13,799 nt of DNA from positions 1 to 13,799 of the forward strand of contig PLHN01000456.1 of assembly GCA_003139975.1 (NCBI GenBank), in the 5' to 3' direction. Positions 11,294-13,799 of this stretch are shown here, piece after piece. Each line of letters begins with the position of its first letter. Positions within the stretch are counted from its first letter, which is position 1. Under the pieces are notes generated by a model that saw only the letters and a list, made by a program, of their open reading frames with translations, was not told the origin of the DNA and ran no database searches. A program made the position numbers and the translations under genes. The DNA is from Acidobacteriaceae bacterium (GTDB lineage Bacteria; Acidobacteriota; Terriglobia; Terriglobales; Acidobacteriaceae).

Positions 11294-11587
11294 ATGTCCT
11301 TAGTGATCAAACTGGAAGACGACCTGGGCGAGCGCAGCGAATGGGTCATTCTGAATGGAGTTGTTCCAGCCCCGAGCGACCCGACGTTCGTGCTGCTAAG
11401 TGGCGTTGATCCCTTCGGCAAAACCGTCTTCAATCACCTGCAGATGGAAGGCTTCCTGAAGGAATGGGAGCGCGTCCGGGAACGCGTCCGAGATGACTCG
11501 CAGCTGGAAGCTTGGCAGCGCGTCAAACAGATGGCCGAAACCTGCCGCCAGGACCGCGACCTTTATCTCCGCTTCGTAGGCAACTAG
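11294..11587 (+). CDS. Small acidic protein of unknown function (97 aa)
   Basis: I do not recognise a family. The product begins Met-Ser-Leu-Val-Ile-Lys-Leu-Glu-Asp-Asp-Leu-Gly and has an N-terminal, beta-rich looking half (1-50). A charged, probably helical C-terminal half follows (about 50-97), with an Arg-Val-Arg-Glu-Arg-Val-Arg run and many Glu, Lys and Gln. There is no signal peptide, membrane segment or cysteine pair. ATG 11294 is favoured by GAGGG (11282-11286) at good spacing and by the promoter at 11235-11263; the same frame is open from 11171. Its TAG (11585-11587) directly abuts the stop of the convergent MT-A70 remnant (11588-11590), so the two genes share no spacer. Whether it belongs to the restriction locus is unclear. 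Confidence 0.65.
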   Translation: MSLVIKLEDDLGERSEWVILNGVVPAPSDPTFVLLSGVDPFGKTVFNHLQMEGFLKEWERVRERVRDDSQLEAWQRVKQMAETCRQDRDLYLRFVGN

Positions 11588-11947
11588 CTAGGCACCGGGC
11601 AAGTCGAAGAGCAGGGGATGATCCGAGTCCCGCCCGCTCTGCGAGTGATTTGCGTAGGTAGACCAAGTCGGGAAATACTCGTCGGCCTGATTGCCCCAAG
11701 AAGTCCATCCCCGCCGGAGACCGCGAGCGAATAGTTCAAGGTAGGGTCCTGGGCTACAGGATTCGATGATCTCGTAGATCTCATCCGGCTTTCGGGAATG
11801 CTCACGCTTCTGGGTTTTGATGACGTTGACCTGCCTACGACCCGGCGCGAGCGTGCGCGCATTCTTTCCTCTGACGCCGAAAAGTATCAATTCGGTCGTG
11901 TTTCGGAAATAGAAGCCGACGCCGCGACCATCGGGGCCACCGTCTTT
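11588..11947 (-). pseudogene. MT-A70 family N6-adenine methyltransferase, C-terminal half only
   Basis: A 119-residue reading matches the C-terminal half of bacterial MT-A70 adenine DNA methyltransferases. It has Gly-Val-Gly-Phe-Tyr-Phe-Arg-Asn-Thr-Thr-Glu-Leu-Ile-Leu-Phe-Gly (9-24), then Arg-Gly-Lys-Asn-Ala-Arg-Thr-Leu-Ala-Pro-Gly-Arg, and Glu-His-Ser-Arg-Lys-Pro-Asp-Glu. Pro-Gly-Pro-Tyr-Leu-Glu-Leu-Phe-Ala-Arg and a Trp-Gly-Asn near the end complete it. The N-terminal half with the catalytic Asp-Pro-Pro-Trp motif and most of the SAM pocket is absent. The reading begins in frame right after the TGA (11948-11950) of the DpnI-like gene, and the DNA upstream encodes that nuclease, so no frameshift can restore the missing half. 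A TTG at 11890 is the only weak internal start seen. It should be catalytically dead. It converges with the 97-aa gene, with abutting stop codons. Confidence 0.85.
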
Positions 11948-12715
11948 TCATGAACGAAGCCTGTAGGTTCCCTTGTCCGTGAAGTCGAGGAGCCGCAGGT
12001 CTCGGAGCACCTGAAGTTGCTGTCGCATTTTCGGACGTACGTTCCGGTTGTGAGGGTGCGCCGCTTGCAGCTCCGGCTCCAGTTGGTATAGCTCTTGAAG
12101 GGAAAACTGGGACTTCCCCAATCGGCGGATGGCGTTAAGGACATCCACAGTCCAGCCCCTCAAGGACGGCGGCAGTTTGCCCAACCCCCTCACGCGTTCA
12201 AATTCTCGCCGAACTTGTTCTCGTGGCTCAGGGGTGCCGGACGATACAACCGCGATTTTGCCGTCCTCGGGAATTCCGCTCAGCAGTATCTTGCAGCCAA
12301 CCCAACCCGCCCTGCGCGCTGTTGGGCTTAGAGGTTTGCGCTTCTCAATGACGCTCTCGGAAAAAAACATCCGAGGAATCAGCAACACGTTCTGGACGTA
12401 CCACTCGCTCGTGTACTGAAGCACGAGAAGATTCGGCGCTCTATCCGACCTAATCGCACGAATCATCGCGTCGTATCCCGCGTCGACAATTTTCTTTGGA
12501 TTCCAGATTCGCGAGCTCTTGAGTTGAAAAACCTGGTCGCATCGCGGGCAGGTAAAGTCGAGACCAGGCGTGTTCACCCGCGACGGCAATATTTGGTTGG
12601 AATCGCAAGCGGGACAATAAAGCTCTCGGCCACACCAGTGCTCGCTTACAACGCGAGCGATCTGCGTGCCGGATTTGTAGGCGGCGGCGACGTCAATGCT
12701 GCATTGCAAATTCAT
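11948..12715 (-). CDS. DpnI-family methyl-directed type II (IIM) restriction endonuclease
   Basis: A 255-residue protein, nearly the length of pneumococcal DpnI (254). DpnI cuts GATC only when the adenine is N6-methylated. The N-terminal PD-(D/E)xK domain holds a zinc site (Cys34, Cys37, Cys56, Cys59). The catalytic series is Asp53, Gln64, Lys66 (Asp-Phe-Thr-Cys then Phe-Gln-Leu-Lys-Ser); as I recall, DpnI itself has Glu at the middle position. The segment Arg-Lys-Pro-Leu-Ser-Pro-Thr-Ala-Arg-Arg-Ala-Gly-Trp (126-138) is a family fingerprint. Residues about 185-255 form the C-terminal winged helix that also reads the methylated site, from Arg-Gly-Trp-Thr-Val through Arg-Gln-Gln-Leu-Gln-Val-Leu-Arg-Asp. 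The ATG at 12715 overlaps the small zinc-ribbon gene by 23 nt, and there is no Shine-Dalgarno, so translation is probably coupled. The gene looks intact. Cutting of GmATC is inferred from the family. Confidence 0.93.
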   Translation of the reverse strand: MNLQCSIDVAAAYKSGTQIARVVSEHWCGRELYCPACDSNQILPSRVNTPGLDFTCPRCDQVFQLKSSRIWNPKKIVDAGYDAMIRAIRSDRAPNLLVLQYTSEWYVQNVLLIPRMFFSESVIEKRKPLSPTARRAGWVGCKILLSGIPEDGKIAVVSSGTPEPREQVRREFERVRGLGKLPPSLRGWTVDVLNAIRRLGKSQFSLQELYQLEPELQAAHPHNRNVRPKMRQQLQVLRDLRLLDFTDKGTYRLRS

Positions 12716-12863
12716 GAGCTAAGGGAGCACTGATTTCATCGCTTCGATAAGGCTCAATCTCCGCATTACAGTTGGGGCACTTGTCGTTGCACATGGAGGA
12801 CCACGCATTTGCCCATTGCGTTCCCTCCCTGGGGCAGCGGTAGTAATTCACATAGCTAATCAT
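12693..12863 (-). CDS. Tiny zinc-ribbon-like protein preceding the DpnI-like gene (56 aa)
   Basis: A short gene starting with ATG at 12863 and ending with TGA at 12693-12695. It encodes Met-Ile-Ser-Tyr-Val-Asn-Tyr-Tyr-Arg-Cys-Pro and so on, with cysteines at 10, 25, 29 and 32 (Cys-x14-Cys-x3-Cys-x2-Cys) and Trp17 and Trp21 between them. It ends the core with Glu-Ile-Glu-Pro-Tyr-Arg-Ser-Asp-Glu. This looks like a family of small zinc-binding proteins in which Cys-x2-Cys-Gly, Trp, and Cys-Pro-x-Cys-Gly are usual. Here the first knuckle has only one Cys, so metal binding may use the Cys set above. An in-frame TAG shortly upstream rules out a longer form. The gene overlaps the DpnI-like gene by 23 nt in another frame, which suggests a two-gene cassette. 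Function is unknown. Confidence 0.6.
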   Translation of the reverse strand: MISYVNYYRCPREGTQWANAWSSMCNDKCPNCNAEIEPYRSDEISAPLAHEFAMQH

Positions 12864-12924
12864 ATTTGGGAAGCCCTAGGGAGACATCGAATCAGTTGAA
12901 ATCAGATCGAGGCTCCTCCAAAGT

Positions 12925-13365
12925 CTATACTTGTTCGCTCCGCGTTATCAGCACGGCAGCGCTGATCTTTCCGAACTCAAAAAACGACCGAAATGCGTAC
13001 AAGTCGCGGTCGAATGTCTGGTCCTTGCTGTTCCACTCGACATCCAAGGCGACTCGGCCCTTTACGTAGTCGATCCGATGGGTATCGCTGCTGATTGTTC
13101 TGTCGTCGACCATCAGATTGGCTTGCAATTTCTCTTCCTTCCATCCTAGAGGGCGGAGGATGGCGGAGAACCTCTTAGGGATCGCCGATTCGTTTCCGCC
13201 CTTGGCCAGAATGTCAGCGGTTGTGATGCGAAATTCGCTTAAGGCCTTGCAAACATCCTGAAATTCGCTTCGGAATTCGTTCGCAAGTATCGTGGCGGCG
13301 TGATGGTAGTCCCGAGTCTCGTACGACTCCTGTATGTCGCGAGGTACGTAATCCTGCCAGACCAA
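12925..13365 (-). pseudogene. BglII/BstYI-family restriction endonuclease, C-terminally truncated
   Basis: A 146-residue product with the hallmarks of the BglII/BstYI nuclease family (Endonuc-BglII), whose known members cut AGATCT or RGATCY. It has Gly-Gly-Asn-Glu-Ser-x-Ile-Pro-Lys-Arg-Phe (56-66), Leu-Arg-Pro-x-Gly-Trp (70-75), and Thr-His-x-Ile-Asp-Tyr-x-Lys (95-102). The signature Asp-Val-Glu-Trp-Asn-Ser-Lys-Asp-Gln-Thr-Phe-Asp-Arg-Asp-Leu-Tyr-Ala-Phe follows at 108-125, with Asp99, Asp108 and Glu110 as likely active-site residues. It stops at Leu-Ile-Thr-Arg-Ser-Glu-Gln-Val. Relatives continue for roughly 60-75 more residues, and neither other frame downstream restores them. The start is TTG 13365, supported by GGAG with a 6-nt spacer; the open frame runs back only to a stop at 13420-13422. 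An orphan GGAGGAG (12913-12919) lies just after the truncation point. It is probably inactive. Confidence 0.82.
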
Positions 13366-13562: not shown

Positions 13563-13799
13563 TTACCGCTCCGGCAAATTCTCCCGCAGAAACTTCATCG
13601 CGTTCTCGCCCATAATCTTGCGAATGTCTTCTTCCGAGTAGCCTGCATCCATCATGGCGGCTGTAATTTCGATCACGCCGGTCGTATCGAAAGGCTCGGT
13701 GACCGCTCCATCGAAATCGGATCCGAGCGCCACATGCTCCACTCCCACGCGGTCGGAAACATAGCGCATCGCCCGGACAATCGCCCGCGCATCCGTGCC
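13563..13799 (-). CDS. Membrane dipeptidase (peptidase M19), C-terminal end only
   Basis: The window ends inside this gene; only the last 78 residues are present and the frame is open at the right edge. M19 enzymes are zinc-dependent dipeptidases related to renal dipeptidase. The segment His-Val-Ala-Leu-Gly-Ser-Asp-Phe-Asp-Gly is the conserved block near the active site. The end, Ile-Arg-Lys-Ile-Met-Gly-Glu-Asn-Ala-Met-Lys-Phe-Leu, corresponds to the family's usual 'Gly-x-Asn-x-x-Arg' C-terminal helix. The stop is TAA at 13563-13565. The metal ligands closer to the N-terminus cannot be checked. It is on the same strand as, and upstream of, the restriction locus but separated from it by 197 nt, so it is probably not part of it. 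Confidence 0.88.
   Translation of the reverse strand, partial: GTDARAIVRAMRYVSDRVGVEHVALGSDFDGAVTEPFDTTGVIEITAAMMDAGYSEEDIRKIMGENAMKFLRENLPER

Follow-up and report, generated by a model that had tools for sequence, protein, structure and literature searches.

The 13,799-nt stretch of DNA analysed here (the window; positions 1 to 13,799 of contig PLHN01000456.1, assembly GCA_003139975.1, from an Acidobacteriaceae bacterium) carries at positions 11588-13365 a DpnI-type nuclease cassette lying between two truncated genes of a restriction-modification pair. Read along the minus strand, the locus starts with the remnant of a BglII/BstYI-type endonuclease (12925..13365, 146 codons), whose match to PF09195 stops at position 120 of 163 (positions 1-120, E 3.6e-30). 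It is followed by a strandless spacer of 61 nt (12864..12924) and by a gene for a zinc-ribbon protein of 56 aa (12693..12863), recognised from its open reading frame (ORF) and from DNA homology to genome G518, which overlaps the start of a full-length DpnI-family nuclease gene (11948..12715, 255 aa) with near-complete matches to PF06044 (1-180/183, E 8.8e-57) and PF17726 (3-69/70). The last gene is the remnant of an MT-A70 methylase (11588..11947), of which the C-terminal 119 codons are left, matching PF05063 only over positions 92-172 of 172 (E 5.4e-15). The first-pass annotation of this DNA had proposed that a segment of 977 nt (11948-12924) with an intact DpnI gene and a zinc-ribbon gene had replaced the junction of a BglII-like/MT-A70 pair, cutting the nuclease at its C-terminus and removing the N-terminal half of the methylase. 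The ORFs and Pfam matches bear out this anatomy and both truncations, and the segment is correctly delimited, since the MT-A70 remnant opens at the codon right behind the DpnI stop (TGA, 11950-11948). Furthermore, intact pairs of this kind were found in relatives.

The two remnants derive from a recognisable type of system. The MT-A70 remnant, which starts ...KDGGPDGRGVGF directly behind the DpnI stop codon and keeps its own stop, begins at the position of residue 101 of M.Nph3I, the methylase of Nitratiruptor phage NrS-3, so that the DPPW catalytic motif is absent. It keeps 42 of 43 invariant columns and shares 79% identity with the G583 methylase and, over 104 of its 119 aa, 77% identity with M.Nph3I. 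The BglII remnant ends with ...LITRSEQV, opposite ...LVTRSETL of the intact G583 enzyme, which continues beyond this point, and it is not a full-length nuclease because the conserved C-terminal TTH..KL and CP blocks are missing; its identity is 47% to the G583 nuclease (79/168 columns, gaps included) and 39% to R.Nph3I. R.Nph3I and M.Nph3I are the closest characterised relatives that we found. Their genes stand in tandem, nuclease then methylase, which is the arrangement required for the ancestral pair of the window, and the same order was observed in G065, G519, G537 and G608. Unlike the pair in the window, the NrS-3 pair is intact and phage-borne, with no DpnI among the annotated genes of the fetched stretch. 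According to the published account of the phage system, R.Nph3I, a PF09195 protein, cleaves RGATCY, M.Nph3I yields RGm6ATCY (m6A, N6-methyladenine), and DpnI cuts that product in vitro (PMC10734518). A BglII/BstYI-type system of Acinetobacter baumannii, alike in type, has been described as producing m6A at RGATCY (PMC10287943). The ancestral pair most likely recognised RGATCY and made RGm6ATCY, judging from these similarities. The link to GATC, made in the first-pass annotation, is now tied to an experiment on a 77%-identical methylase, and because DpnI cuts the product of M.Nph3I the conflict between DpnI and this type of methylase rests on experiment as well, though not for this host. No NCBIfam name was assigned to the BglII or MT-A70 proteins, and a sequence search of the PDB with one intact BglII relative returned no match.

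The inserted genes appear to travel together. DNA homology to the nearest relative, G518 (78%), spans 12863-11947, that is, from the ATG of the zinc-ribbon gene to 1 base past the DpnI stop, and nothing else of the region matched G518 at the limit used; as the homology starts at its ATG, the zinc-ribbon gene is part of the cassette. The DpnI proteins of the window and G518 share 84% identity, and the ratio of nonsynonymous to synonymous substitution rates (dN/dS) between them is 0.055 for DpnI and 0.13 for the zinc ribbon, values pointing to purifying selection on both genes. Across the 117 DpnI loci that we collected, a zinc-ribbon gene adjoined DpnI in 17, within 287 bp and on either side and either strand, and it was not found farther out in the scanned flanks of these loci. 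These loci come from 43 of 250 genomes of the family (some matches partial), 12 of 396 genomes of the phylum and the best 80 of at least 538 named relatives; 11 of the 80 named loci were dropped as duplicates, as judged by contig name and length, further overlap is possible, and the total includes some loci with a DpnI fragment only. A different small gene, a 79-aa ORF (MNKIFVTVSGG...) upstream of DpnI in G006, adjoined DpnI within 80 bp in 5 of the 117 loci (L036:4462-4695, L140, L148, L150 and L181), none of which has the zinc ribbon. Additionally, G546 (L146:5648-6030) holds a C-terminal DpnI fragment with 85% DNA identity to the window, and between its stop and the unrelated DNA beyond lie about 16 nt similar to the opening of the window's MT-A70 remnant, so that either the join is older than it appears or a locus of this sort was the source from which the cassette moved on.

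The window's nuclease has the two domains of the DpnI family, a catalytic domain (PF06044) and a C-terminal winged helix (PF17726), and the profile of its family matched the DpnI structure 4esj over 252 positions. Across 18 aligned sequences C34, C37, C56 and C59, which we take to be the zinc-binding cysteines, and W138, presumably the Trp of the RAGW motif, are invariant. The active site reads D..QLK rather than D..ELK, with D53 and K66 kept and Gln at position 64, and a Lys stands at N142, a position that is otherwise nearly invariant. Gln at position 64 was found in 6 of the 18 aligned members, the window's included, and Glu is retained in G226, G550, G626 and G653. QxK active sites occur in Mrr-type nucleases. 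The QLK could be read as the sign of a catalytically dead DpnI, which the dN/dS of this gene and the recurrence of the Gln in five further sequences of the alignment make less likely.

Remnants of BglII/MT-A70 systems recur beside DpnI. They were present in 9 of the 117 loci, namely in the window, G006, G226, G491, G550, G626, G653, a Dehalococcoidia metagenome-assembled genome (MAG; JAFGCL010000050.1) and an Acidobacteriaceae MAG (PLUI01000102.1). All lie 9-519 bp away from DpnI; the scan covered 218 kb up to a distance of 1 kb and 841 kb at 1-7 kb, and the outer part gave no hit. As read from coordinates and strands, all 11 remnant genes of these 9 loci lack the end that faces DpnI. When nine remnant pieces were re-tested with Pfam, five scored above the curated cut-off (L181, L176, L192 and both of L160). 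In a tree of 106 DpnI proteins, from which 11 fragment-only loci were left out and in which the longest piece stood for split genes, the remnant label needs 7 changes, with the starred branches forcing at least 3. This suggests that the remnant state arose several times, while the window and G491 may share one origin. DpnI_C-like proteins in L151 and L152, perhaps stand-alone, were not scored as remnants.

Comparison with relatives that retain an intact pair located some of the breakpoints. G626 and G615 belong to the same genus; in G615 the MT-A70 and BglII genes are convergent, and their facing 3' ends, which make up 637 bp there, have given way in G626 to 1167 bp that carry zinc ribbon and DpnI. 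On these alignments G626 is a second junction replacement, with the window's anatomy but from a differently arranged pair. In addition, MT-A70 homology between the Acidobacteriaceae MAG and G537 (79% DNA identity) ends just before a small ORF and DpnI, and in G006 8 bp separate the end of the BglII homology from the stop codon of DpnI. Across genera, G226 and G493 share one genomic slot, with flanks collinear on both sides at 66-83% identity, where G493 has an intact BglII/MT-A70 pair and G226 has DpnI with an N-terminal BglII piece (89% DNA identity). With one genome per species in the sample, this slot is the nearest approach to two forms at one locus. At L041:5137-8393 an intact BglII/MT-A70 pair stands with two DpnI winged-helix pieces nearby, and, as seen by eye, BglII is preceded by a truncated piece of a methylase (DPPYFLSN) joined to it in the same frame; possibly this is a reverse switch.

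In the sampled genomes no intact methylase of this MT-A70 subfamily was found together with DpnI. A methylase profile gave 15 matches in the 250 family genomes, 12 of them whole and in genomes with no DpnI match, and three broken (G000, G626, G653) and in genomes with DpnI. In the 80 named DpnI genomes it gave three matches, each to a broken gene next to DpnI; G491, one of the three, belongs to the 250 as well but lies just outside the stricter profile limit used there. MT-A70 was accordingly broken in 6/6 cases in DpnI genomes vs 0/12 in DpnI-free genomes (exact p 5e-5, by hand), and within the 250-genome draw alone in 3/3 vs 0/12 (p 0.002). No intact MT-A70 was found in the 43 family DpnI genomes or the 80 named DpnI genomes, two partly overlapping sets. 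The mutual exclusivity of methylase and nuclease known from dam and drg is also seen, in the sampled genomes, for the M.Nph3I-like MT-A70 subfamily. The whole MT-A70 copies mostly kept their partner, a full-length BglII gene lying within 121 bp of 10 of the 12, at 2.6 kb from one and being not found by one. The D12 family of Dam methylases had no match in the genome from which the window comes, which is incomplete. The only DpnI genome in which we saw a full-length BglII-domain gene elsewhere was G399 (L129:5353-6995), where this nuclease overlaps a methylase with SPPY, not an MT-A70. SPPY is typical of cytosine-N4 methylases, and the G399 pair perhaps carries another mark that DpnI tolerates.

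The neighbours of DpnI were also surveyed without preset families. We took 346 flanking ORFs, at most two per side, of at least 70 aa and with the nearest end within 800 bp of DpnI, and scanned them with Pfam in batches of 140, 140 and 66, the figures referring to the 25 commonest families of each batch; PADLOC was applied to the first 140 ORFs and NCBIfam to the second 140. BglII was the commonest Pfam family in the first batch, from the window's phylum, with 5 members including the window's and SH3_18 next with 3. N6_N4 methylases led the second batch (11), and D12 (Dam) led the last (3). The Dam-type genes of L202, L241 and L244 end at profile position 219-234 of 267, on the DpnI side, and shorter Dam pieces adjoin DpnI in L114, L115, L124, L221 and L228, which brings Dam remnants to 8 of the 117 loci, all within 302 bp of DpnI and without the facing end. 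The matches in L221 (Streptococcus anginosus J4206; 34 residues, E 1e-6) and L228 (23 residues, E 2e-5) are short, and in L124 the DpnI gene is wrecked too. Taken with the MT-A70 pieces, these Dam pieces mean that DpnI adjoins the wrecks of two unrelated families of GATC-type methylases. Some candidates were discarded: methylases that seemed to be without a catalytic motif in L183, L186 and L193-L195 have HPPY, and the assignment of L248 as a DpnII system beside DpnI was wrong. At L235:6135-6908 an ORF for a DpnII-type nuclease lies just downstream of DpnI, its PF04556 match having been assigned by eye.

The surroundings of the island place it as a whole. On the left, a 97-aa host gene on the plus strand (p97; 11294..11587) has its stop codon abutting the end of the MT-A70 remnant, and on the right lies the 3' end of an M19 dipeptidase gene on the minus strand (13563..13799), which extends past the window. 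The two genes are convergent and the whole island is inserted between them. p97 was matched in 28 of 61 genomes searched, the window's own included. M19 lay at most 140 bp from p97 in 7 of 24 other p97 loci, all from the window's genus; 2 further loci had it at distances of 0.75 and 1.3 kb, and in 15 it was not found (fetched stretch up to 3.3 kb). Thus the entire island, beyond the DpnI segment alone, is an insertion between p97 and M19. The BglII remnant had a match in 9 of 101 genomes, again including its own, and neither p97 nor M19 occurred in the flanks (about 1.5 kb per side) of the other 8. The first-pass annotation had called for a search of relatives for an intact pair in this same neighbourhood; intact BglII/MT-A70 pairs do exist, but the search found no sister genome with one between p97 and M19.

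We consider it likely that a zinc-ribbon and DpnI cassette displaced the junction of the BglII/MT-A70 pair, and that incompatibility between methylase and DpnI selected for such recombinants. A mobile cassette landing at the junction of a tandem Type II pair, a BglII-type nuclease followed by an MT-A70 methylase, would take away the 3' end of the nuclease gene together with the 5' half of the methylase gene and so disarm both at once. The incoming DpnI would cut any DNA still bearing Gm6ATC; an active methylase and DpnI in one cell would be incompatible, and only recombinants with a broken methylase should survive, which would explain why these methylases are broken on the DpnI-facing side. 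Since a cut at the junction would be the one simple event removing both genes, and since a cell that lost its methylase before its nuclease would be open to attack by the latter, this reasoning favours replacement in one step, without demonstrating it. Selection by incompatibility in this host and activity of the window's DpnI are likewise presumed. The open reading frames of both remnants and the conservation of the methylase piece suggest that the event in the window was recent.

Several observations weigh against this interpretation. With Gln in place of the catalytic Glu, here and in some relatives, DNA cutting by the window's DpnI is putative, and the host genome is a MAG that is only 72.7% complete. 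Pfam support was weak, below the cut-off, for L121, L162 and L136 and absent for L163, a piece that matched the methylase profile with E 1.8e-16. The remnants in G006, G626 and the Dehalococcoidia MAG are frameshifted as well as truncated, and the DpnI gene of G006 is itself split over two frames. The tree forces only 3 of the 7 changes needed. The absence of intact MT-A70 from the 43 family DpnI genomes is not significant alone (about 2 expected, 0 seen), and 30 of the 80 named genomes, which gave no match, were searched without a positive control. The BglII genes of G226 and G493 are oppositely oriented and more alike (89%) than their flanks (66-83%), which makes transfer into a hot spot as likely as replacement of a vertically inherited pair, and this slot may have been filled twice by transfer. 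Furthermore, whole-looking CcrM-like methylases (DPPYFLSN) stand beside DpnI in L180, L187, L206 and L214, and should double-stranded GATC be their substrate, the incompatibility model would be contradicted; methylases with HPPY or DHPW also adjoin DpnI (such as those of L183, L215 and L223).

The same end state could have been reached by stepwise decay, in which the pair was inactivated and eroded, the nuclease first and then the methylase, and DpnI landed later in harmless debris. G409 (L126:4988-5735) shows that the nuclease can be lost beside an intact methylase, having a whole MT-A70, a BglII gene reduced to a C-terminal piece and no DpnI in the stretch, and the frameshifts in three of the loci are damage of the kind that decay would leave. 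However, the window's remnants are open over their full 119 and 146 codons with the methylase nearly unchanged at its invariant columns, and random decay should not spare the outer ends and hit the DpnI side in 11 of 11 genes. We therefore regard stepwise decay as unlikely. The second alternative, turnover of a defence slot, holds that DpnI and BglII/MT-A70 share integration hot spots and overwrite each other with no functional incompatibility. The slot common to G226 and G493 fits such turnover, as do the DpnI pieces near the intact pair of L041. The BglII/MT-A70 unit is itself mobile: when 32-35 kb of G493 and G598 were compared, a stretch of 1649 bp aligned, at 81%, and no other part did, relatives of the BglII query were found in 5 phage records, and methylase relatives at 60-80% identity lie on 17 plasmid records. 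Overwriting of this kind is nevertheless improbable in our judgement, because no other restriction family stands out in the 25 commonest families of the 140 flanking ORFs of the phylum and because Dam, the other methylase family found broken beside DpnI, makes the same mark. Lastly, a chimeric contig, which the size of the source contig (25,140 bases in a MAG of 545 contigs) might suggest, is very improbable given that the window's two flanks are neighbours in genomes of the same genus and that comparable joins occur in other assemblies, those of G226 (on a 167-kb contig), G491 (on a 531-kb contig) and G626.

Exchange between dam and drg and between DpnII and DpnI is already known, and what appears to be new here is BglII/MT-A70 as the loser. 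In Neisseria a DpnI-family gene is reported at the dam site, dam+/drg- and dam-/drg+ being mutually exclusive (PMC516771). As with drg (NmeBII), the window's DpnI-family gene occupies a disrupted adenine methylase gene; in Neisseria, however, an orphan dam is disrupted, whereas in the window the cut falls at the junction of a complete Type II pair of another origin and leaves remnants of both genes. In pneumococcus, DpnI and DpnII are described as complementary GATC systems, one or the other per strain (PMC3573125). There, as far as that source describes, these are alternative systems exchanged in the laboratory, while in our case the displaced system, which has no relationship to DpnII, has left truncated genes behind, and the exchange shows in comparisons across species and genera. 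McrBC, which is reported to kill cells acquiring methyltransferases (PMC2614495), resembles the proposed action of DpnI in being a methyl-specific nuclease directed against incoming methylation and differs in nuclease family and mark. The statement of the first-pass annotation that no BglII/MT-A70-to-DpnI replacement was known agrees with our search of open PMC papers, which returned no account of one, subscription papers being mostly outside its scope.

A broader idea, which we offer tentatively, is that DpnI genes could spread as small demolition cassettes (DpnI with a zinc ribbon, the 79-aa ORF or DpnD), fixed mainly where they land in and break a resident system of adenine methylation with a GATC core (the unrelated MT-A70/BglII, Dam and DpnII), only such landings being survivable. 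Neisseria drg and pneumococcal DpnI would then be special cases, and the nuclease-methylase junction would be a favoured target, as both genes are disarmed there in one event. The window extends the pattern of Neisseria dam and pneumococcus towards a process that recurs and leaves its traces in genomes; both old genes can still be read here, and the loser has a biochemically characterised relative in the Nph3I system. It makes the order of events testable, with the prediction that DpnI hosts are without Gm6ATC, and it draws attention to the zinc-ribbon partner of DpnI. It also offers a specific example of a route by which a cell that marks GATC could turn to destroying marked GATC and survive the change.

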